From Candidatus Nitrosocosmicus agrestis (GTDB lineage Archaea > Thermoproteota > Nitrososphaeria > Nitrososphaerales > Nitrososphaeraceae), in contig NZ_VUYS01000002.1 in NCBI RefSeq assembly GCF_008389435.1, forward strand, positions 124,001 to 188,000: DNA of 64,000 nt, written 5' to 3'. Under the pieces are notes generated by a model that saw only the letters and a list, made by a program, of their open reading frames with translations, was not told where the DNA came from and made no database searches. Each line of letters starts with the position of its first letter. The first letter of the stretch is position 1. Of the stretch, positions 1-21,821 are shown in pieces. Made by a program: the position numbers and the translations under genes.

Positions 1-534
1 TTCAGCATACCTGAGAAACTCCTCTGAAGGTTTTTTAGATAATTCACTTAATTCTTTAATTAATTCTAACGGTCTGGTATCTATCACAATATAGATATGA
101 TAACCATTTCCTGTCCACAGTATAGTCGGTTGAGAACTATATAATTTTTCTTCGATTGTCTTTATACTCCTATTCTTTGTCTTTTCTAACTTAGTTATTG
201 CTTCCGGATATGGTAGATTTTTTTCTAAATCAAGATCGATAAAAATAATATTTGGAGCTTGTATGTCTGAATAACTGAGATAATCGTTGTTGTCTAAAAC
301 TGGGTAAGCATTGATTCTACAATCTATAAAATCTGCTTTAATGTATTCATTTAGTATTTGTTCTTTGTTATAGACTGTAAATTGTCTATTATTACTAAAA
401 GCCGTTGATATTTTCCTCGGGAATAATTGTTGTCTTCCTTCAAAATGTGAAAGAATAAAATCTATTCCTTCTTTAACTTTGTTGATTCTATCATCCTTTT
501 TCTTATAGTCAACACCACTATTTCCAGAAATCAT
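1..534 (-). CDS. Archaeo-eukaryotic primase superfamily protein (partial)
   Basis: This reading frame runs off the left edge; 178 N-terminal residues are visible. Residues 97-103 (IFIDLDL) match the hydrophobic-D-hydrophobic-D metal-binding motif of archaeo-eukaryotic primases, and residues 142-148 (GNGYHIY) resemble the following histidine motif that binds the incoming nucleotide. The start ATG at 534 lies inside the polymerase gene, overlapping its end by 17 bases, so the two are translationally coupled. Together with the polymerase and the helicase it probably primes replication of the integrated element. It is not the chromosomal PriS, because it sits in a mobile-element operon; the length and C-terminal domains are unknown. 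Confidence 0.75.
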   Translation of the reverse strand, partial: MISGNSGVDYKKKDDRINKVKEGIDFILSHFEGRQQLFPRKISTAFSNNRQFTVYNKEQILNEYIKADFIDCRINAYPVLDNNDYLSYSDIQAPNIIFIDLDLEKNLPYPEAITKLEKTKNRSIKTIEEKLYSSQPTILWTGNGYHIYIVIDTRPLELIKELSELSKKPSEEFLRYAE

Positions 535-2536
535 CTAAAGTTGAGTCCCCTTTAACATGCTTATTGTAATTATAACCTAAACATTCTACCTGTTTTTCAA
601 ATATTGATTGTAATGTTTTGAGGTATTCGCTTCTGTCTATGAATGCGGGATCTGAATGTGCTTTTCCAAGGCAATTAGCTTTGTAATAATGTATGGTATC
701 TCCCTCCTTAGCATTTTGTTGTTTTCCCACAATATATTGAAATTTATTATCAGAATACTCAGATGGATCTCTTTCTAAAGTAAGACTAATTGCTAACCGT
801 TCATGTGGAACTTGACCTTTTTCCATATCTTGATATGCTTTTCTTAGTTTGATTGTAGGATTTCTACCATGTTTTAGATCTTCAACAAACCCTCTTTGAA
901 GATTATTTATCCATGGGGGTCTATCAGATTTTTTACCTTCCATTCCCACTATATCCGGAGCTTTAGTTACATCATCCTGATGTATTCCTATGTAATGCTT
1001 CTTACCTAAAAGTAGAAACTTTTTATAAGTTTTGACTAATTCAATTTCTGTATCCTCGAGCATTATAGAGCATTCTGCGAGAAATTTATCGATATCTAGT
1101 TCACCTTTTACGTCTGTTACAAAAATACTGTCGGTATCTCCATAAATTACGTCAAATCCATAAACTTTCTCTGCAATATGTTTCATATAGTCTAAAGTTC
1201 TTCTACCAAAGGCAGTAGTTAGTTCTGCTACTCGGTAATCAGCAAATTCAAAAAACTTGGTATTAAAAAGACCATAACAACCATTAATCAAAATCTTTAG
1301 TCCTAATTGCATAGCATTATTTCCCAGGTCTTTTTGTCTGAATCGTTCATTTCTATACTGTTCTAGGAGCTTTGGAATTATACCTCTGTATCTTTTGCAA
1401 ATCCAATATTCTTTTTGTCCTTGATGTTGTTCTTTTTCACCTTTGTCATGTATTAAATTCATGATTTCCTTTGGAACTCTAGCTTCGGGGTCATCTTTAC
1501 AACATGAACAGTTAACAGTGTCAAAGCTAATGTTGTAAATTATTATCAAAGTAGGATAAAGCGATCGCACATCAAAAACATACACGAGTTTTTTATCTCT
1601 ATAATAACCTTTTTTAGGATCGAGGACTAATCCACCTTCAATTTTCTTTTTTCCTCTTTGTATAGGATCAAGCGTTGGAGGTTTGCATTCACCGTTGTTA
1701 ATCTTGTCATTGATGACTTTGGTCCACCAACTAGTTAAACTATTGTTACAGACTCTATCAAATGGTACTTTTGTAATTATAGATATGGCATTCATCAAAT
1801 CAAAGATTTCATAGTTATTATGTCTGGAAAGGTCCATAACTAATGATGCATCTTTTATAACATATTCTAGTTGTTTAACATTAGATAATTGTTGTATCTT
1901 TTGTCCATCCATGTATTCAAGCTTTCCTTCACCTAAAATTGTTCTGCATACTGTATCTAGTTTCAGATTTAGATATTTACCATTGTAAATACCCATCACC
2001 ATTTCCTTTTTGTAAACGTTATAGAGGTCTATGTGATAATAATACCTAAATTTGTTTAATTTTCTAATGGTTGGAACGGCAGAAAAATTTCGTATATCGT
2101 GACCTCTGATATAAGGAACGCCTCTACGGTCAAAAGCAACAATTGAAGAAATATCATAAAATTTGCAAACTTCATCTATTATCTTTAAATCAGAATTTAT
2201 TCCACTAAACTTACCTCTACTGTTTTGAATTCTAACACCCTTGGTGTTCCAACCAATTGTTAATCTATACTGTAGAATTTCAGACATGATCCATTTTACC
2301 AATTCCTTTTCTGGTTGCATGTGATTGACAAAGTCTAATTCATGCTTTGATTTTATGTTTCCTAAATTATCAACTATTGCTCCTGCAAATATTGAATACG
2401 GTTTTTGAGAATTATTTTCATCATATCTATATTCTAAATCAAGAGCAGCGTAGGGTTGCATTAGCAATTCATTCCTTTGAATATTATAATTGGTATTGGA
2501 AGTGATTAAAGGAACGTTTGAACTTGAACTTGTCAT
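518..2536 (-). CDS. Family B DNA polymerase with proofreading exonuclease
   Basis: The 672-residue protein carries all hallmark motifs. Exo I is at residues 33-35 (DLE), Exo III is around 225-229 (YVIKD), polymerase motif A is at 322-330 (DVRSLYPTL), motif B is at 414-422 (KILINGCYG, where the usual NS is NG), and motif C is at 465-470 (YGDTDS). A late stretch (GMEGKKSDRPPW) resembles the thumb-proximal KxxxxR region of the family. At about 670 residues it is shorter than cellular PolB (about 780-900), like polymerases of mobile elements and viruses. Its start overlaps the helicase stop by four bases and its end overlaps the primase start. It probably replicates the element; it could alternatively belong to a casposon-like or spindle-virus-like lineage. 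Confidence 0.92.
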   Translation of the reverse strand: MTSSSSNVPLITSNTNYNIQRNELLMQPYAALDLEYRYDENNSQKPYSIFAGAIVDNLGNIKSKHELDFVNHMQPEKELVKWIMSEILQYRLTIGWNTKGVRIQNSRGKFSGINSDLKIIDEVCKFYDISSIVAFDRRGVPYIRGHDIRNFSAVPTIRKLNKFRYYYHIDLYNVYKKEMVMGIYNGKYLNLKLDTVCRTILGEGKLEYMDGQKIQQLSNVKQLEYVIKDASLVMDLSRHNNYEIFDLMNAISIITKVPFDRVCNNSLTSWWTKVINDKINNGECKPPTLDPIQRGKKKIEGGLVLDPKKGYYRDKKLVYVFDVRSLYPTLIIIYNISFDTVNCSCCKDDPEARVPKEIMNLIHDKGEKEQHQGQKEYWICKRYRGIIPKLLEQYRNERFRQKDLGNNAMQLGLKILINGCYGLFNTKFFEFADYRVAELTTAFGRRTLDYMKHIAEKVYGFDVIYGDTDSIFVTDVKGELDIDKFLAECSIMLEDTEIELVKTYKKFLLLGKKHYIGIHQDDVTKAPDIVGMEGKKSDRPPWINNLQRGFVEDLKHGRNPTIKLRKAYQDMEKGQVPHERLAISLTLERDPSEYSDNKFQYIVGKQQNAKEGDTIHYYKANCLGKAHSDPAFIDRSEYLKTLQSIFEKQVECLGYNYNKHVKGDSTLDDFWK

Positions 2537-5127
2537 ACCGTTTCCCCCTTTTGAGGGTTAGTCAAAGATTCATTATTACTTTCAAACCACTTTACCAACA
2601 ATTGCGGTTTGTTTTTTATGATTTTGATATTTGGATGTCTTATAATATTTGAAACGAGATCCCTTACAATTCGATTTTCTCTTGAAGTTAACTTATCTCC
2701 CAAATAATTTCTAACTATTTCATTATTCTTACAAACGGATCCTATGGCATAATTGACGGCTATTATCGAGCCATCAGATAATTGTATAATTTTTAGAATT
2801 TCCTGTAAAGCAGTGTATTTAATACCGTCGCTATCTGTAATTATGGGAGAAACGGGATATTGTGTCTGATACTCCTCTTCGTCTTCGTCTTCTGCATGTG
2901 ACCTTGTCACATGCTCAAATGGTTCTGACCCGGAGAGAGGCACGGTGATTTTTTTGGTATTTTGTATGTTAAAGATCCCACATGATTTTATTGGGTTACA
3001 ACAGAGATTTTCAGTCTTATCCTCTTTTACAGGTAAAAATTTCTCCGATTTTTCTTTTGAATCTCGACTCTTACTTAAGCCATCGTCTAAATCACCATCA
3101 TGTTTTTGCTGAGCCTGTGGTGATGAAATATCTTTGAACGTGTGACAGTAATTATTGTTATTGTCACACGGTTCTACTGTTTCAATAGTATCAGCTTTGT
3201 CGATGGAATTCTGAACAGAATCATTCTCAAAATCATTATCATCAACAGATTGTGTGTCGCACTCATAATTTTTATTAGATTTCTGATCATAAGGAACAAA
3301 ATCCTCTTTTAGATCGAGAAATTCTTTTGTTCTAAACCAGTCATATTCAGAATTCAATCTTATCTTAAGTTCTGAATTACTATAATCACTTACTGTTGAT
3401 ATCTCCCCTATCCTTAAAGCTTCAAATTCTCTCATCGTTCGAGTTACCACCGGTTGTGAAATTGATAGTTCATTGCATATCTGTGATGTTGTAAGTTCTC
3501 CAGTTTCGCTTTTTAGTAGGAGGTCTAATAACCTTACACGTCTCACAGGTGCTGTTGATAAAGCAACTTTGACAGCGATTGGAACATCCTGTATGGTCAG
3601 GGAGTTTCTTCCCTGAGAAATTGCATGTCCGATTGCAAGGTTACGTAAAAGAATAACCGCTCTAGATGCATCCTCAATTACAGGAAAGTCTGTATCATAA
3701 TCTTGACCTTCTACTTGATGTGGTTGTTGATAATAGTTACCATTTTGTTCATTATTTGATTCATTATTTTCGTTACTATAATTCGATTTATGTTTTGTAA
3801 ACTTTGATTGAGAGACATAGACGTCTCCTCTAAGAGGAGCGAGTAAATTTGCTAGTTGTGCTATATATTCTAAAGCCTTGTCTTGTTCTCCTTCCTCTTC
3901 TTCATTCCATCTTATTTTTATAACGTTGTTTTCAAGCCTTGTCCTACCTTCTATTTCAGGAGCAGCGTCAAATACTTTTAAATAATCTAAAAGTTTTTCT
4001 TCAATTTCTTTGTTTGTGCTGGAAAAATTATTGTTTTTGGCTATTCGTTTTAAGTCCCAAACTGTTTTCTTTTGAAGGTTAGGACGGATAAAATATATCT
4101 TATGACCTAATGTTCCCAATAATTTCCACACTCTAAAAGGGATCTCGACTGCGGCTCCCAGCCATACAAACATAGTATCCCCGTATTTTCTATGCCCATG
4201 GGCACCAGAATCATTTTCCAGTCCATGTCCGTCAAGAACTCGGGTTATTATTCCCATGGTTTTTTGAAGATCTTCCTCCTTGCCTGTAAAAAATAACGCC
4301 AATTCGGGAGTAAGTACGAGTTTACCTTTCATTTTTGGTAACATGTCAACTTTTTGTAGTTGTTCCTCGTTTAATGCTGCGTTATGTGAGATAAGTGAGC
4401 TTGGAGTAAAGCCGTCTGTGTAAAAAACATGGACATATTTTCTAAAGAGCTGAATTACCATGGTTTTCATTGAAGATGGAGGTGCAACTATTACGCCCAT
4501 AAACGGGAGAGTGAAATCCATAACGTTCAGTATTGATTTAACCGTTAAGCAAAATTCCATAAATATCCAGGCTTCTGGATAATGACTTTTGAATATCTTT
4601 TCTAAAATCTCATATTTTTCGGCTACCTTAGATTGCCATTCTTTATAGGGATCAGATGCTTCTTGGAATTGACTTCTAAGTTTCTTTACGTCATTTAAAA
4701 AATTAGATTTAAATTCGTCGTTTGGTTGATCTTCAATATTAGGATCAAGTCTATCTTGACAAAGAAAAATTTCATCTCTATATGAGACAATCTGATTCTC
4801 TATATCTGATATCCCTTGATCTATTAATTGAGAATCACCTGTCATTTGCTTGAGGTATTTTAGTTTGATTCTAACCTCCTTACATAATTTTTGAATTGAA
4901 GATTTAGATTTTCCTACTATTACTATGCAAATAGTCTCATTTCCAGAATTAAATTGTAATATACCCCTATCTAGAATGATCTCATCTATCCCCATTTTAG
5001 AGACATTTTCAGTTATTTTGAATCTGATCGTTCTCGTATTTTTATCGATTGGACCAATATTGCTGTCGCGACTATGACTCAAATTTTTCACCTTTCTTCT
5101 GGTCATGACAGAGACATCTACAAACAA
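2533..5127 (-). CDS. AAA+ replicative helicase-like protein with winged helix
   Basis: The 864-residue protein has an N-terminal part of unknown fold, a P-loop at about residues 214-222 (VAPPSSMKT, with Met where most P-loops have Gly, much as MCM has Ala), a Walker B-like strand at 269-280 (KLVLTPELALFF), a sensor-like strand around WLGAAVEIP, and a winged-helix region near residues 535-590 with a recognition helix (SQPVVTRTMREF). The C-terminal third is rich in Asp, Asn and Ser and looks disordered. This layout is like MCM-type or plasmid replication helicases. An alternative ATG at 5106 would give a protein seven residues shorter. It lies between the zinc protein and the polymerase, with overlaps on both sides. 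Confidence 0.7.
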   Translation of the reverse strand: MFVDVSVMTRRKVKNLSHSRDSNIGPIDKNTRTIRFKITENVSKMGIDEIILDRGILQFNSGNETICIVIVGKSKSSIQKLCKEVRIKLKYLKQMTGDSQLIDQGISDIENQIVSYRDEIFLCQDRLDPNIEDQPNDEFKSNFLNDVKKLRSQFQEASDPYKEWQSKVAEKYEILEKIFKSHYPEAWIFMEFCLTVKSILNVMDFTLPFMGVIVAPPSSMKTMVIQLFRKYVHVFYTDGFTPSSLISHNAALNEEQLQKVDMLPKMKGKLVLTPELALFFTGKEEDLQKTMGIITRVLDGHGLENDSGAHGHRKYGDTMFVWLGAAVEIPFRVWKLLGTLGHKIYFIRPNLQKKTVWDLKRIAKNNNFSSTNKEIEEKLLDYLKVFDAAPEIEGRTRLENNVIKIRWNEEEEGEQDKALEYIAQLANLLAPLRGDVYVSQSKFTKHKSNYSNENNESNNEQNGNYYQQPHQVEGQDYDTDFPVIEDASRAVILLRNLAIGHAISQGRNSLTIQDVPIAVKVALSTAPVRRVRLLDLLLKSETGELTTSQICNELSISQPVVTRTMREFEALRIGEISTVSDYSNSELKIRLNSEYDWFRTKEFLDLKEDFVPYDQKSNKNYECDTQSVDDNDFENDSVQNSIDKADTIETVEPCDNNNNYCHTFKDISSPQAQQKHDGDLDDGLSKSRDSKEKSEKFLPVKEDKTENLCCNPIKSCGIFNIQNTKKITVPLSGSEPFEHVTRSHAEDEDEEEYQTQYPVSPIITDSDGIKYTALQEILKIIQLSDGSIIAVNYAIGSVCKNNEIVRNYLGDKLTSRENRIVRDLVSNIIRHPNIKIIKNKPQLLVKWFESNNESLTNPQKGETV

Positions 5128-5305
5128 TTCTAATCCCTGTTGGTTTGTTTGAATAGACTGTTTTACACTTGTTACAAGTTATCGGACATTTAGCAATAGA
5201 TAATTCCAGTATTGAAAAACTATTTATCGATTCATTGTTACCTTCATAAAGTTTAATTTCATGTTTATCCTTATTAACAATGGGAAAATTCTTTTCATCT
5301 TTCAT
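5072..5305 (-). CDS. Small CxCxCH zinc-binding protein
   Basis: The 77-residue protein has a CxxxCxxC cluster (CPITCNKC) followed about 20 residues later by CRCLCH, so four or more cysteines and a histidine could bind zinc. It begins four bases after the AbrB-like gene stop and its end overlaps the helicase gene, so it is part of the replication operon. The CxCxCH ending is shared with another small protein of this chromosome near 22110. Function is not known; a DNA-binding or recruitment role in replication is only a guess. Confidence 0.6.
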   Translation of the reverse strand: MKDEKNFPIVNKDKHEIKLYEGNNESINSFSILELSIAKCPITCNKCKTVYSNKPTGIRIVCRCLCHDQKKGEKFES

Positions 5306-5308
5306 TTT

Positions 5309-5470
5309 TTAAACCTCTAATTTTTCGATAATGATCTTGTCATTGTCCTTGTTGATTTTGACAAAATCTCCTCTTTGCATTTGAAGATCTTTTAGAAAGT
5401 CTTTGGGTAAGACAACGGTTAGTGATGTTTTACCCACGATTCCATTGATTCTATGAATATGTCCTCTCAT
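5309..5470 (-). CDS. AbrB/SpoVT-type DNA-binding regulator
   Basis: A 53-residue ORF (MRGHIHRINGIVGKT..., ending KIIIEKLEV) has the swapped-hairpin AbrB pattern: a short strand, then SLTVVLPKDFLKDLQ, then a basic/acidic strand with GDFVKI. It is too short for most ORF callers. It is the first gene of the leftward replication operon, four bases before the zinc protein. The palindrome at 5504-5529 lies between it and the divergent gene, fitting a small dimeric repressor that controls its own operon. A MazE-like antitoxin is the main alternative, but no toxin gene is adjacent. Confidence 0.65.
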   Translation of the reverse strand: MRGHIHRINGIVGKTSLTVVLPKDFLKDLQMQRGDFVKINKDNDKIIIEKLEV

Positions 5471-5503
5471 TACAATATAGACTGTAGATACTGTTATTAG
5501 GAA

Positions 5504-5529
5504 GATACTATTATGTATATGATAGTATC
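5504..5529. promoter_or_regulatory. Palindromic operator candidate in divergent promoter
   Basis: GATACTAT at 5504-5511 is repeated in perfect inverted orientation as ATAGTATC at 5522-5529, with a 10-base spacer. A further half-site GATACT lies at 5487-5492. The palindrome sits in the 65-base gap between the AbrB-like gene and the divergent gene starting at 5536, and overlaps the region where the TATA box of the rightward gene should lie. Binding by the AbrB-like protein is inference. Confidence 0.5.
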
Positions 5530-5535
5530 ACGTAT

Positions 5536-6786
5536 ATGTTACAATCTAATACTAACAAATTAACGATCAAAAGCATCACTATCGAAGATATTCTTTATCG
5601 CGATGTCGAAAAACTCGAATCTAATAATGATGAGGAGAAAGAGTATAAAGAGGAGATTAGCCTTTACCGGGACATTATCCGTTTTATTCTTTCAGATTAT
5701 AAGGACAAATACAACCCAGAAATTGAGAAGGATGACATGAACGGTATACCGATTATAGTTTCTTTTAGGATTTGGCCATTATGCAAGTGGTTATTTAACA
5801 ATAACAAGGATTTGCAAGATGCATATGAAGAGGAATATGGAAGCAGACGGGTTGCTATTGAGAAGAGACCAACAAAGATTAAAGGAAAAGTTGCACGTAG
5901 GTTAGAAAGACTTGTACAGTTAGGATTATTCGATATTGATGAAAACAAGGTCAAATCTCAAAGAAACAAGGGTCTGGAGACACTATTATATCATGTTCCA
6001 AGGAGTGGTATATTAGTCGCATTGACTTTGGATCTACAGAACTGCGATAAGGGTTCAGACAGGTATAAGAAAATGTTGCTCCTGACGTTGAACGAGTACC
6101 TTATATCTATTCCTCCAAATTATAAGAACTACGATAATTACTATTATTATTTTCTAAAGACTCTTTTGACTAAATGTATAAACAAATACGATGATATTCT
6201 CGACTACTTTTTTTATTATATGTCTAAACATTCCTTTGGGTTCTTGATAAATTTTCATGATTTAAGATATACCATGAACAATTTCATTTTTGAAAAAATT
6301 TTAAATGACAATAATTTTAGGGAATTGTTCTATGAGACGTTAAATAATTTTAAAACACCATTGTTTTCAAAAGAACCACAAGATAAATTGGACAAAAAAA
6401 TATTAGATACGGAATTAAAAAATATTGAAAAAAGCAGACATATGATTAAAGTCTGCTTTAAATCAGATATTGAGTCTCAAATTGACAAAGACATGTGGGA
6501 GTCTTTAAAATATGATACCCACATGATGAAATCTTTTCAGTATACCAATAGCCAAAAAAAACGTTTTATTCCAAACCATGTCTATAAAAATGGATTATAT
6601 GAAAAGATAGAACGAGAAAAGGTTATAAATCATCAAATAAGAAATGAATGGGAAATAATAAAAAACAACAACCTTAATTCAAATAAGATTACGATGATCG
6701 TAAAATGTCAAAGGTGTAGTCACATATTCTCATATTTATATAATATAGAAAGTCAAACTTGGGATGCAGTTGGACTAAAACCGTAA
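5536..6786 (+). CDS. Hypothetical element protein, possible winged helix
   Basis: I do not recognise this 416-residue protein. The N-terminal half contains a basic helical stretch (residues about 105-135, including KGKVARRLERLVQLGLF) that could be part of a winged helix; the middle is rich in Tyr, Asn and Lys. The C-terminus has a single CxxC (KCQRCSHIF), too little alone for a zinc ribbon unless it dimerises. It is transcribed away from the replication operon and toward the integrase gene, with which it converges 43 bases apart. It belongs to the mobile element, perhaps as a regulator. Confidence 0.5.
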   Translation: MLQSNTNKLTIKSITIEDILYRDVEKLESNNDEEKEYKEEISLYRDIIRFILSDYKDKYNPEIEKDDMNGIPIIVSFRIWPLCKWLFNNNKDLQDAYEEEYGSRRVAIEKRPTKIKGKVARRLERLVQLGLFDIDENKVKSQRNKGLETLLYHVPRSGILVALTLDLQNCDKGSDRYKKMLLLTLNEYLISIPPNYKNYDNYYYYFLKTLLTKCINKYDDILDYFFYYMSKHSFGFLINFHDLRYTMNNFIFEKILNDNNFRELFYETLNNFKTPLFSKEPQDKLDKKILDTELKNIEKSRHMIKVCFKSDIESQIDKDMWESLKYDTHMMKSFQYTNSQKKRFIPNHVYKNGLYEKIEREKVINHQIRNEWEIIKNNNLNSNKITMIVKCQRCSHIFSYLYNIESQTWDAVGLKP

Positions 6787-6829
6787 GACGTTATTAATGA
6801 ATTATTTGATTTTTGAATTTAACAAAACC

Positions 6830-8176
6830 CTAGTCAAAGTTGCCTGATTGAATTAGCTGTCTTGCTATCAGCTGTTTTCCTTGTTCATCAACTGAAGAAA
6901 AGGCTTTGACTAAATCTTGCAAGACAGAATCCATTTCTTTATATCTGGTCTCTAGTTCCATTATCTTCTTGTTTTCTTCTTCTTTAATTTCATCAAATGC
7001 TTCTGGTTTTAGAGGATAGGAACATTTAGAACAGTATTTATTCTCCAATATATTTGGTAAATCGCATCGTGGACATATTGACTGTATAGGTTTCTTCTTT
7101 TGGAGTTCTTCTGTAATTATTCCATTGTATTCTAATATTTTGTTTTTTAGTTCATTACCCATTCTTCTCTTGATATATCTAGATCCTTGTTTTGAATTCA
7201 TTGACCACCTTACTTTCTTCTTTAATGCATATTCAGGAAGATAGTCGGAATCGGCAGTTATCGCTGAATGTCTTATGCAATAAGGATTCCATTTCTTTAC
7301 TTTGAGCAAACGGTTCAATCTTTCCTTTTCCTCTTCATCCGTTATCTGGTTTGATTCAATTAGTCTTTCAATTCTTTCTTTTAGATGCTTCATAAAATTA
7401 TTTAGAGCGTCAGCATGTATTGGAGCACCGGTGATTTGATTACAAATTATACTTGCATTTGGTTCATTTTTAAAAGGATGTTCATTAATCCAATCTCTAA
7501 CATAAGGAAATGAAAAAGTAAGTAGAATAGGACCAGTTCCAGTTTTTGATTCGAAAGGAATTTCACCTTCTCCATATTTTTGCTTTAATTTTATATGCTT
7601 TATTTTGAGACCTGAAATCTCATGAGGTCTAGCGTCTAGGTCCCAAAGTAACGATAATGCAGCTTTATTTCTTTTTAAGGGTTCATATTTTATTATTGCT
7701 TGAAAGTCATCTTTATCCCATATTTCAGATTCCAGATATGGACTGATTCTTTTACTCTTCTTTTCTTTGATTTTCAGAAAAGATGGAGTCACCCAATCTG
7801 AAGGATCCAATGATTCTTCATTTCTCTGTTGTCTTAATTTTTCATTGTATAACCATCTAAAAAAATACTTAATTCTCTGTAAATAGTCATTCCAAGTTCG
7901 CATCCATTTTCCGTCAGGATCATCCTCTTTACTTTTTATTTTAGAATCAAGAAATGACAGTATCTCTTCCTTTTTAGATATTTGAATAAAATCTAAATTT
8001 TTTCCAAAGAATTTTGCCATATTAATTAGGGCTTTGATATTCTGATTTTGATAACTTTCAGATGTATTAACAGATCTCAAGTACAGATAAAATTCATAAA
8101 TTAATTGAGCATTATTGTAGTTATCCAATAGTCGAATATTTTTTATGGAGGTCTCTAACTTTACTGGCATTAACAA
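6830..8176 (-). CDS. Tyrosine recombinase (integrase) with C-terminal zinc ribbon
   Basis: The 448-residue protein has an N-terminal core-binding SAM-like region, then the catalytic domain: Arg183 (LDARPHEI), the box II region at 299-304 (YCIRHS, Arg302 and His303), and the nucleophile Tyr334 (SRYIKR). After the catalytic domain, four cysteines (368, 371, 382, 385) form a zinc ribbon, followed by a helical tail. It is read leftward and its start is 90 bases from the 3' end of tRNA-Lys, the position expected for an integrase that recombines at that tRNA. The catalytic residues look intact, so the element may still be mobile. Confidence 0.88.
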   Translation of the reverse strand: MLMPVKLETSIKNIRLLDNYNNAQLIYEFYLYLRSVNTSESYQNQNIKALINMAKFFGKNLDFIQISKKEEILSFLDSKIKSKEDDPDGKWMRTWNDYLQRIKYFFRWLYNEKLRQQRNEESLDPSDWVTPSFLKIKEKKSKRISPYLESEIWDKDDFQAIIKYEPLKRNKAALSLLWDLDARPHEISGLKIKHIKLKQKYGEGEIPFESKTGTGPILLTFSFPYVRDWINEHPFKNEPNASIICNQITGAPIHADALNNFMKHLKERIERLIESNQITDEEEKERLNRLLKVKKWNPYCIRHSAITADSDYLPEYALKKKVRWSMNSKQGSRYIKRRMGNELKNKILEYNGIITEELQKKKPIQSICPRCDLPNILENKYCSKCSYPLKPEAFDEIKEEENKKIMELETRYKEMDSVLQDLVKAFSSVDEQGKQLIARQLIQSGNFD

Positions 8177-8265
8177 AGCCTCCTGCTATCACGAATATCG
8201 GTAATATACATTATTTTATGACGAATATAATATAGAATAACTTGTATATAGACCCGTATACTATG

Positions 8266-8354
8266 CGGGTTCGGTGGGATTCGGACCCACGACATTTTAA
8301 CCTCTTTCGAACTGGTTAAGAGCCAGACGCTCTGCCTGGCTGAGCTACGAACCC
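8266..8354 (-). tRNA. tRNA-Lys(CTT) with short non-canonical intron
   Basis: On the minus strand the acceptor arms GGGTTCG and CGAACCC pair fully, the D-arm is GCTC/GAGC, the anticodon loop is CTCTTAA (anticodon CTT) and the T-arm is GTGGG/CCCAC. Between the anticodon arm and the T-arm there are about 21 bases instead of the usual 5. Removing 15-16 bases (about 8296-8311) restores a five-pair anticodon stem TCTGG/CCAGA and a normal variable loop, so a small archaeal intron after position 42-44 is likely. The 3' end faces the integrase gene, making it the probable attachment site. Confidence 0.85.
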
Positions 8355-10700: not shown

Positions 10701-10839
10701 TTAGATCATATGTAATTCAATTTATAAAAGAAATAATCCTCTAATCTTGTATTCAGGTATATCAAAATACGTCTGAATTCTCTTTGGACGTAGTTTTAAC
10801 CGCCTTTGGAAGTGGATTTGTTCTGTATGTGTACAAAGA

Positions 10840-10953
10840 ATTGACCGTGGTTGGTAGTAGGGACAATGTTTTGACGAGAGATTGACCGTGGTTGGTAGTA
10901 GGGACAATGTTTTGACGAGAGATTGACCGTGGTTGGTAGTAGGGACAATGTTT
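10840..10953. repeat. 41-bp tandem repeat, about 2.8 copies
   Basis: A 41-base unit starting ATTGACCGTGGTTGG begins at 10840, 10881 and 10922; the first two copies are complete and identical, the third stops after about 32 bases. The repeats are directly joined, with no variable spacers, so this is not a CRISPR array. They lie in the 354-base gap (10701-11054) between two divergent genes. Apparent small ORFs here are just the repeat translated. Confidence 0.9.
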
Positions 10954-11054
10954 GGATAGTTTCAAGTTACCATATTGTCGGCAAATGAGCACTGATTATA
11001 TATGATCAAAGTTAGATTTAAGAAATATAGATTCGTCATTTACGTCATGTAAGT

Positions 11055-19400: not shown

Positions 19401-20351
19401 TCAGGTTATGGCCAACATTCTCTCAATTGGAATGATAGCTTTTCGCGCTATCTTCTCAGGAACCTTTACTTCATAAACATCGTTTATCAAAGAATTATGA
19501 ACTTTTTCAACTGTAATTTTTTTCATATATTTGCAAACTGCGTCGTTTTTAACTGGGATAAACTCCTTAGAGGGATTCTCTTCCTGCATCCTATGCAATA
19601 TTCCAACCTCAGTTGCTATCAGAAATTGATTATTCTTTGACTCTCTGGCCTCTTTCATCATTCCCTCAGTAGATAATATTTTACAATCCTTGTTAATATC
19701 ACCCTTTGAAACGTGATAGAGAGTGGATGATGTACAGCTGCACTCAGGATGCACCATGAATTCAGCATTACTATATTTTGCTAACATTGAGTTGATATCC
19801 TTGTCAGTAATTCCAGCGTGAACGTGACATTCACCAGGCCAGATTTTGATATTATTTCTTTTTGTTTCTTCAGCAACATATGCCCCTAAAAACATATCAG
19901 GCAAAAACAGCACGGGTTGATCTGCAGGAATACTTTTTACTACTTTTACTGCGTTTGAGGATGTACAACAGTAATCCGAAAGTGCTTTAATTTCAGCAGA
20001 GGTATTAACATAGCTTACCACAACTGCATTAGGATTTTCATTTTTCCATTTTAGTAGCTCCTTTGGATTAATGGATGAAGCAAGCGAACATCCTGCTTCA
20101 AGGTCGGGGATGAGAACTTTCTTGTCGGGACTAATGATTGAAGCAGTTTCGGCCATAAAATGTACCCCACAAAATACTATGTATGAGGCATCGGTTTCTC
20201 CAGCTAATCGAGATAATTTCAACGAATCGCCAATAAAATCAGCAACTTCTTGTACTTGTGATATTTGATAGTTATGTGCCAAAATAATGGCATTTTTTTC
20301 TTTCTTTAGCCTTTGAATTTCCTTACTGAAGTCAAAATTCAGAATTGACAT
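19401..20351 (-). CDS. nadA: Quinolinate synthase NadA
   Basis: The enzyme condenses iminoaspartate with dihydroxyacetone phosphate to quinolinate using a [4Fe-4S] cluster. Evidence is the N-terminal NAIILAHNYQISQVQEVADF, the first repeat cysteine in VFCGVHFMAETA, LEAGCSLA, the HPECSCTSS region and the last cluster cysteine in VCKYMKKITVEKV. I chose the ATG at 20351 (MSILNFDF); a TTG three codons upstream is possible. Convergent to nadC, so the two NAD genes are neighbours but not one operon. No aspartate oxidase or dehydrogenase is seen here. Confidence 0.94.
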   Translation of the reverse strand: MSILNFDFSKEIQRLKKEKNAIILAHNYQISQVQEVADFIGDSLKLSRLAGETDASYIVFCGVHFMAETASIISPDKKVLIPDLEAGCSLASSINPKELLKWKNENPNAVVVSYVNTSAEIKALSDYCCTSSNAVKVVKSIPADQPVLFLPDMFLGAYVAEETKRNNIKIWPGECHVHAGITDKDINSMLAKYSNAEFMVHPECSCTSSTLYHVSKGDINKDCKILSTEGMMKEARESKNNQFLIATEVGILHRMQEENPSKEFIPVKNDAVCKYMKKITVEKVHNSLINDVYEVKVPEKIARKAIIPIERMLAIT

Positions 20352-20499
20352 TAGTTGCAAAACAGATAAAGATGTGCCGCCATTTAAATAATAATGAACT
20401 AGTCCTTGATTGCCACGAATTTTTTATTCTTGGTAATTGTTGCCTGTATATCCCTCATAGAATGTATACAATAAATATGAGATAGATAATATCAACATT

Positions 20500-20679
20500 A
20501 TGCCGACTCACGGATCGTTAACAAAAGCTGGGAAAGTTAGAGGTCAAACCCCCAAAATCCAAGCTCGAGAAAGAACTAGCCCACCTTCAAGGGTAAGAAA
20601 CAAAAATAATTTTGTTAAGAGATTTGAAAAAAGGGTTCAACCAGGTCAGAAAAAGCCTGAAAGAATGCGAAGACGTTAA
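20500..20679 (+). CDS. rps30e: Ribosomal protein S30e
   Basis: The 59-residue ORF ([19 protein letters not shown]...) has the classic S30e pattern GSLxxAGKVRxQTPK, then a basic tail rich in Arg and Lys ([20 protein letters not shown]). It is absent from simple ORF lists because it is short. It lies upstream of L15e on the same strand. Confidence 0.9.
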
Positions 20680-20865
20680 GATTTCTTTTTTTGGTTAATA
20701 CTCAATTTTTGGTTTCTTTTCTTTTTCAGTATTTTAACATGTTTTTTTCATTTTAAGAAAATAACTGCTATCTATTATCCTACCTGCATATTGTCAAATT
20801 AAAAATAGAAAGGTTACAATCACCTCCCAAAGAAAATATTAATGGGTATTAAATAACTCAAGGAT

Positions 20866-21318
20866 ATGTACAGCCACATTGCGGAAACATGGAAGACAAT
20901 GCTAAAAAACAGATCTCCTGAGCTTAAAAGAAAGGCATACACATGGAGGAGAGAACCAACGGTAAATCGAATTGAGCATCCAAGCCGTTTGGATAGAGCA
21001 AGAGCAGTAGGATATAAAGCCAAACAAGGGATCATTGTAGTGCGAATCAGAGTAGGAAGAGGTGGAATGAGAAAACAAAGACCAGTAGCAGGAAGAAGAC
21101 CAAAACATATTGGTGTAGTTCACATTAAACAAAAAATTAGCATGAAAAGGGTTGCAGAAAGACGTGTAAATGAAAAGTACTTAAATATGAAAGTAATGGG
21201 CTCTTATATGATTTATCAAGATGGTATGTATTCGTGGTTTGAAGTTATATTAGCTGATCCAAGTCATCCTGCGATAACAAAAGACAAAGAAATGCGAAGC
21301 AGGATAAACTTTAACTAA
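20866..21318 (+). CDS. rpl15e: Ribosomal protein L15e
   Basis: The 150-residue protein matches the archaeal/eukaryotic L15e family from end to end: MYSHIAETWK, then RIEHPSRLDRARAVGYKAKQ and GRGGMRKQRPVAGRRPK in the RNA-binding core, and MKVMGSYMIYQDG followed by the short C-terminal tail. The ATG at 20866 gives the usual length. Confidence 0.95.
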   Translation: MYSHIAETWKTMLKNRSPELKRKAYTWRREPTVNRIEHPSRLDRARAVGYKAKQGIIVVRIRVGRGGMRKQRPVAGRRPKHIGVVHIKQKISMKRVAERRVNEKYLNMKVMGSYMIYQDGMYSWFEVILADPSHPAITKDKEMRSRINFN

Positions 21319-21419
21319 CTAGTAAGAACGCACATAAAAATATTTTATATGTATATAAATAAATAAATATACATAAAGGCGTATCCACCCACTACATTTC
21401 TTTCATTTCAAACCGAGTT

Positions 21420-21821
21420 CTACTTTGAGTCGATTTCCTTAATTTTTACAATAACATCCGAGACATCTTGCAATGGTACGTCTCTATCTAGTGTGATGTA
21501 AATCAACAAATTATCTTTGGTAGAAGGAACAAGTACAAGTGTCACCAAATCATTCTTGGTTATGGAAAAATCCGTTTTTCCAATAGATTCATTAAAAGAA
21601 TTTCTTAGTTGTTGTCTTATTGCTTCAACAAAATGCTCATCCCTCGCTTGTTCAGGAGACAATAGTGGAGTAACATTTTTTCTAAGTTTTCCTGCTACGG
21701 TCCTACCGTATCTGTTGATAATTCCAACATAGCGTATTTTTTCTGAAATACCCATAAGTTCCAGGCATTTGTTCTGAAAAGAAAGTCTAATTGCAGAAAA
21801 ATCGTCGTTCTTGTTAGCCAT
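21420..21821 (-). CDS. Conserved hypothetical protein
   Basis: I do not recognise a characterised family. The 133-residue protein is alpha/beta in pattern with LELMGISEKIRYVGIINR and strands LVTLVLVPS and LLIYITLD, a layout reminiscent of a profilin/roadblock-like or sensor fold. It has no membrane segment. It stands alone between the L15e gene and a small Cys-rich protein gene. Confidence 0.55.
   Translation of the reverse strand: MANKNDDFSAIRLSFQNKCLELMGISEKIRYVGIINRYGRTVAGKLRKNVTPLLSPEQARDEHFVEAIRQQLRNSFNESIGKTDFSITKNDLVTLVLVPSTKDNLLIYITLDRDVPLQDVSDVIVKIKEIDSK

Follow-up and report, generated by a model that had tools for sequence, protein, structure and literature searches.

A helicase-type ATPase, PolB and AEP-PriX primase operon on a likely plasmid-like element at tRNA-Lys of Candidatus Nitrosocosmicus

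Cryptic integrated elements with PolB, MCM or AEP-S3H proteins have been described from thaumarchaea, and, as parts of that account present them (e.g., ThaMY3-E2 with PolB and MCM; Krupovic et al. 2019, PMC6563490), they share with the locus studied here a tyrosine integrase, a tRNA 3′-end target, short att sites, element-borne replication genes and metal or oxidase cargo, with no virion or conjugation genes found in either. The replication modules given in those parts of the paper are AEP-S3H, split PriCT/S3H, or PolB with MCM, whereas here an AEP-PriX protein, a PolB and a helicase form one operon. Casposons are similar in that a thaumarchaeal mobile element bears its own PolB, but the present locus has a tyrosine recombinase at a tRNA instead, and Pfam/NCBIfam scans of the tested ORFs found no Cas1 family; a casposon was therefore rejected, in agreement with an earlier sequence-only reading of this DNA that had set it apart from casposons for the same reason. 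PolpTN2 of the Thermococcus plasmid pTN2 is likewise a mobile-element AEP with a C-terminal domain of the PriL/PriX kind, although that domain is PriL-like rather than PriX and the PolB that it primes in vitro is the host's (PMC3973330). The PriX domain itself is common to Sulfolobus PriSLX (profile E 1e-12, fold match), where PriX is a separate host primase subunit, while here it is fused to a RepB′/PrimPol-like AEP on an element. We found no description of an AEP-PriX fusion, PolB and helicase in one operon in the open-access literature (supplements aside), and no earlier description of such a cassette family in these archaea, cryptic integrated elements themselves being already known. Because it has an integrase and a target tRNA, with the tRNA 3′ end copied to its left, varies in presence and place among relatives, and shows purifying selection, we read the locus as part of a mobile element, likely a cryptic plasmid-like one that was inserted by its integrase at the 3′ end of tRNA-Lys(CTT) and would replicate itself by AEP-PriX priming of its own PolB.

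The operon and its predicted proteins

The window is the whole 64,000-nucleotide stretch analysed (C28:124001-188000) from the genome (G000, 3.22 Mb) of Candidatus Nitrosocosmicus, an ammonia-oxidising archaeon of soil, and the part studied here is its positions 1-8354 (C28:124001-132354). Leftwards from the integrase, the gene order is integrase, a 416-aa gene, an AbrB-like gene, a zinc-protein gene, an AAA+ ATPase, PolB and primase, with operon neighbours overlapping by 4-56 bp except for the AbrB/zinc pair (3 bp gap); left of the primase lie a 171-aa protein, ArsR, a copper-type P-type ATPase and transporters. The sequence-only reading had listed an operon of a zinc protein, a helicase, a PolB with Exo I and motifs A-C and a primase with an hhhDhD motif, with a divergent gene and then an intact tyrosine integrase between it and tRNA-Lys. 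All of these ORFs were found as claimed, the integrase being apparently intact with conserved motifs, and we add to that list the PriX domain, the C-terminus of the primase and the cargo to the left. Elsewhere in the window, positions 10722-10992 hold an apparent short tandem repeat, where overlapping ORFs repeat units like SKHCPYYQPRSI.

The primase ORF is open at the window edge, with its first 178 codons inside the window (1..534, minus strand) and the end of the full gene (C28:123416-124534, 372 aa) 585 bp to the left. Its hhhDhD (FIDLDL), GNGYH and LRIPYTFNSK motifs are conserved in homologues, and residues D100 and D102, GxGxH, and R200-P-N-K are invariant or nearly so among 37 homologues. 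The C-terminal domain matched PriX in NCBIfam (E=3.4e-13), as did the primase profile against Sulfolobus PriX (4wyh, E=1.1e-12); PriX is structurally related to PriL/PriCT (PMC5862659). A structure modelled for a 79%-identical homologue (L155; pLDDT 90) matched first the RepB′ primase (E 1.2e-4), and its next matches, with E-values >0.001, include other primase-polymerases and PriX (1.7 Å). Judged from these motifs and profiles, the primase joins an AEP domain to a PriX domain in one protein, and a pTN2-type AEP-PriL module was rejected, the C-terminal domain being PriX where such a module has a PriL-like one.

The neighbouring family B DNA polymerase (PolB; 518..2536, minus strand, 672 aa) carries both exonuclease and polymerase motifs, namely DLEY (Exo I), YVIKDASLVMD (Exo III), DVRSLYPTLI (A), KILINGCYGLF (B) and YGDTDSIFV (C). 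PF00136 (E=1.6e-37) was the only PolB family matched, PF03175 (the protein-primed class with TPR insertions) gave no match, and the best PDB match was Sulfolobus DNA polymerase I (PolB1, 1s5j, E=1e-30). Protein priming is unsupported, given these matches to PF00136 and Sulfolobus PolB1 and the AEP-PriX primase that accompanies the enzyme, and by family assignment the enzyme is of the primer-extending class; of the protein- or RNA-primed self-replication suggested from the letters, the protein-primed part was thus dropped. Membership of the pipolins, Polintons or viral pPolBs, which takes a protein-primed PolB, was rejected on the same PF00136 and PolB1 matches. In a phylogenetic tree, the element PolBs branch apart from the host PolB with support of 100/99, although long branches call for care. 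The genome also encodes a third, very divergent PolB (L003, G000:C4:46246-47379, 814 aa).

Upstream of PolB, an 864-aa AAA+-type P-loop ATPase (2533..5127, minus strand) has the P-loop APPSSMKT, a winged helix in its C-terminal half, and a weak, distant hhalign match to an MCM profile (prob 72, E 3.4e-5); with a poor structure model (pLDDT 49), its fold was assessed by profile comparison only. We presume it to be the replicative helicase, partly from its P-loop, its position in the operon and its replacement by MCM in sister operons. The 77-aa CxxC zinc-binding protein (5072..5305, minus strand) has small zinc ORFs as positional counterparts at two other loci (L192, L207), again upstream of the helicase, and the 53-aa AbrB/MazE-fold regulator (5309..5470, minus strand) matched PF04014 (E=1e-4) and TIGR02609 (E=1.4e-5). 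The divergent 416-aa protein with a C-terminal CxxC pair (5536..6786, plus strand) matched no family; a homologue was seen only in the related genome G151, where it is split in two, and none in G041, and the protein is possibly a regulator or initiator. Finally, the 448-aa tyrosine integrase (6830..8176, minus strand) adjoins the tRNA, has the motifs ARPHE and CIRHS and the SRYIKR tyrosine, and matched the PHROG integrase family phrog_1 (E=1.8e-14), with catalytic motifs conserved in four homologues and a dN/dS of 0.09 versus G041. Its integration target would be tRNA-Lys(CTT) (8265..8354, minus strand), at whose 3′ end lies the att core TATACTATGCGGGTTCGGTGGGAT (8257..8280, plus strand).

Relatives and the cassette family

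A fixed place of the gene set in all relatives, which would have spoken against the sequence-only reading, is not what the relatives have: the operon lies elsewhere in G041, has decayed in G151 and is missing from most of them. The homologous G041 operon is found at 1.84 Mb, away from tRNA-Lys and with no close integrase, and is accompanied, as in G000, by CopA, ArsR, the 171-aa gene, CsoR, EamA and the left-end gene pair. A second G041 locus has an 84%-identical integrase at tRNA-Lys together with a different PolB and an MCM (L121:9526-13916; 708 and 755 aa, respectively, with no adjacent primase). The G151 copy (JARFXS010000013, Nitrosocosmicus WA-bin7) is at tRNA-Lys and shares the right 9 kb with G000 before its contig ends; several of its genes are broken, to which assembly errors could contribute in this metagenome bin. 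Between G000 and G041, dS was 0.51-0.90 for the replication genes versus 1.46 and saturation for two host genes beside the tRNA, which indicates lateral transfer between species, and the dN/dS of the replication genes (0.19-0.26 for this pair, 0.14-0.26 as a whole) indicates that the module stayed under selection. A vertical host operon was rejected, as presence, place and synonymous divergence do not track the host.

A primase search of GTDB genomes returned 67 loci, all with Nitrososphaerales titles and mostly Nitrososphaeraceae, among which three bins are labelled “Nitrosopumilus sp.” or “Thaumarchaeota archaeon.” At about ten of them, the gene immediately before the primase is PolB, and wherever the DNA upstream of such a PolB-primase pair could be read (nine loci: the window, G041, G137, G151/L155, L192, L205, L207, L213 and L216), the order was helicase-PolB-primase, the helicase-type gene usually overlapping PolB by a few bases. 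The helicases differ in type: besides the window family there are MCM proper, at L207 and L213 with Pfam E 1e-30 or better, and two further ATPase types, one in L192 and the other in L205 and L216. Many other loci have a helicase-type gene before the primase and no PolB. In G000, other AEP-PriX integrated elements (C41, C17 and C12; L127-L131) lie near tRNA-Ala, tRNA-Ser and tRNA-Arg and lack PolB, and in those of C41 and C17 a helicase adjoins the primase. Across five genomes, 8 of 15 primase loci were within 8 kb of a tyrosine recombinase (0.4 expected), and among these are loci in the same genome that have tRNA-Ser, tRNA-Arg and tRNA-Ala close by. By gene order and family matches, the operon is a modular cassette that occurs either as helicase-PolB-primase, in which the helicase is exchangeable, or as helicase-primase with no PolB, and PolB may be accessory, since most related elements do without it.

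The many sister elements lacking PolB would also suit a different function, in which the PolB-primase-helicase operon of a real integrated element serves DNA repair, gap filling or element-host conflict rather than element replication, and a repair role has been proposed for PolB-containing operons of archaeal genomes and elements (cited in a part of PMC6563490). We consider this improbable, as an AEP-PriX primase and a helicase stand beside PolB at every readable locus, the swapping of the helicase for a bona fide MCM is a pattern of replication modules, and no defence family was found among the proteins, except that a homing-endonuclease model was matched over its polymerase region.

Element ends, cargo and att-like sites

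Copies of the tRNA-Lys 3′ end are present to the left as an exact 24-nt match at C28:61275-61298 (71 kb from the tRNA), 11-13 nt matches at C28 74.1 and 75.8 kb (58 and 56 kb from the tRNA), and a nearest copy of 8 nt, GGGTTCGG, near C28:88766 (43.5 kb from the tRNA). A duplicate within about 60 kb to the left had been predicted, and both the 8-nt and the 11-13 nt copies fall in that range; the left end had also been placed outside the window, and both the end of the primase gene and the candidate left edge at C28:88,766 lie beyond it. Thaumarchaeal att sites down to 8 bp are on record in at least part of the published account (PMC6563490). No att-like site was found by the repeat scan between C28 88.8 and 132 kb, and at the tRNA 3′ end, among genomes in which it is readable, between-genome conservation stops and several different sequences follow. 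Going inward from the 88,766 site, the first shared left-end genes, one for a 224-aa protein and one for an AbrB-like protein, come after 3.2 kb, and at two G041 loci the same pair lies 4.7 kb inside comparable att-like sites, with the left-terminal 3-5 kb unlike among the three compared elements. The predicted empty site for this left edge (a C-type arm joined to the tRNA) was found in none of 15 genomes, and neither an origin nor iterons nor a free circular form were recognised for the element. Overall, the repeats and shared genes indicate that the element probably spans C28:88,766-132,267 (43.5 kb) rather than about 8.9 kb.

Copper and cation cargo (CsoR, CDF, multicopper oxidase, P-type ATPase and ArsR) is encoded at C28:96032-100110 and 119834-122441, and EamA and MFS transporters and a MacB-type system are also encoded within C28 88.8-123 kb. 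There is some chance, though a minor one, that the mobile unit comprises only the ~9 kb from integrase to primase and that the copper genes and other left DNA are an older, separate insertion, which would fit both the decayed G151 copy sharing just this right part before its contig ends and a nearest left repeat of only 8 nt. Still, CopA, ArsR, the 171-aa gene, CsoR, EamA and the left-end pair travel with the operon to another G041 site, in each of the three elements compared that pair is 3-5 kb inward of an att-like site, and the interval between 88.8 and 132 kb is free of att-like sites, which makes an element of 8.9 kb whose end is left of the primase less likely.

Thaumarchaeal viruses with PolB are known, and several left-end ORFs of 200-430 aa belong to no known family, as could be expected of a defective provirus whose structural genes were lost or are unrecognisable. 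We regard such an origin as very improbable. No capsid, portal or terminase was matched among the scanned proteins, and Pfam/PHROG scans of most element ORFs found neither virion nor conjugation genes; the spindle-virus major capsid protein, of which distant forms could be missed, had no match among the scanned ORFs. The primase, helicase and PolB had no homologue in IMG/VR, the primase and helicase had no match in GenBank phages, PolB matched the latter at only about 23-26%, and the metal-resistance cargo is plasmid-like. The primase had no match in plasmids.

The element end is also part of a larger pattern, as one-way arrays of tRNA-Lys-derived att-like sites extend over C28:4472-132268 (to window position 8268), with similar arrays in islands of G041, G049, G007 and G074 (L121-L124, L141-L144, L150-L154). 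Of the 44 GGTTCGGYGG copies counted in four genomes, excluding those in tRNAs, 30 were located no more than 130 kb from tRNA-Lys on its 3′ side, and each of these 30 has the same orientation as the tRNA. Sites in the arrays are 33 bp to about 43 kb apart with cargo genes between them, and at 27 of 59 sites a palindrome with 4 or more of its 5 pairs has its centre 13 nt beyond the core, versus 0-2 sites at any neighbouring centre. PF00589 found only the tRNA-adjoining tyrosine recombinase in the G000 and G041 islands and none inside the island sequences scanned for G007, G049 and G074, with limited sensitivity for divergent integrases. Tandem integration arrays at one tRNA have been described (PMC8371274) and likewise reuse one attB, whereas here there are up to about 14 same-orientation sites and most arrays have no detected tyrosine recombinase inside.

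Two blocks of C28 are more alike among genomes than the host flanks, which are only about 80% identical in the relatives concerned: 84396-88605 is 94% identical to part of the G007 tRNA-Lys island, and 19631-21583 is 89-94% identical to blocks in relatives’ tRNA-Lys islands. This suggests that cassettes were shared laterally, and the 84.4-88.6 kb stretch is therefore unusable as plain host flank. Simple accretion with integrase loss explains the arrays. A more speculative and, in our view, doubtful idea is that tRNA-Lys acts as an integron-like platform, where the integrase captures integrase-less cassettes (a GGGTTCGGTGG core plus the palindrome 13 nt inside) and stacks them one way; if so, the self-replicating element would be both a resident and the supplier of the enzyme.

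Proposed replication and significance

For the plasmid-like, self-replicating element that we favour, the integrase would excise the element as a circle, and the AAA+ protein would open the DNA, perhaps aided at an origin by the zinc and AbrB-like proteins. The AEP-PriX protein would then lay primers for the element PolB to extend and proofread, with clamp, clamp loader and ligase presumably supplied by the host. The step from AEP-PriX to PolB is plausible, since the AEP-PriL fusion PolpTN2 primes PolB in vitro (PMC3973330).

If this is right, soil ammonia oxidisers host elements that bring their own priming, extension and unwinding, with the helicase freely exchanged. Such a cassette would offer a small, testable replisome (AEP-PriX, PolB and an AAA+ protein or MCM) and a fused equivalent of the stand-alone archaeal PriX subunit, and may yield genetic tools for organisms that have very few. 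The elements would also provide a route for copper-resistance genes among copper-dependent nitrifiers.
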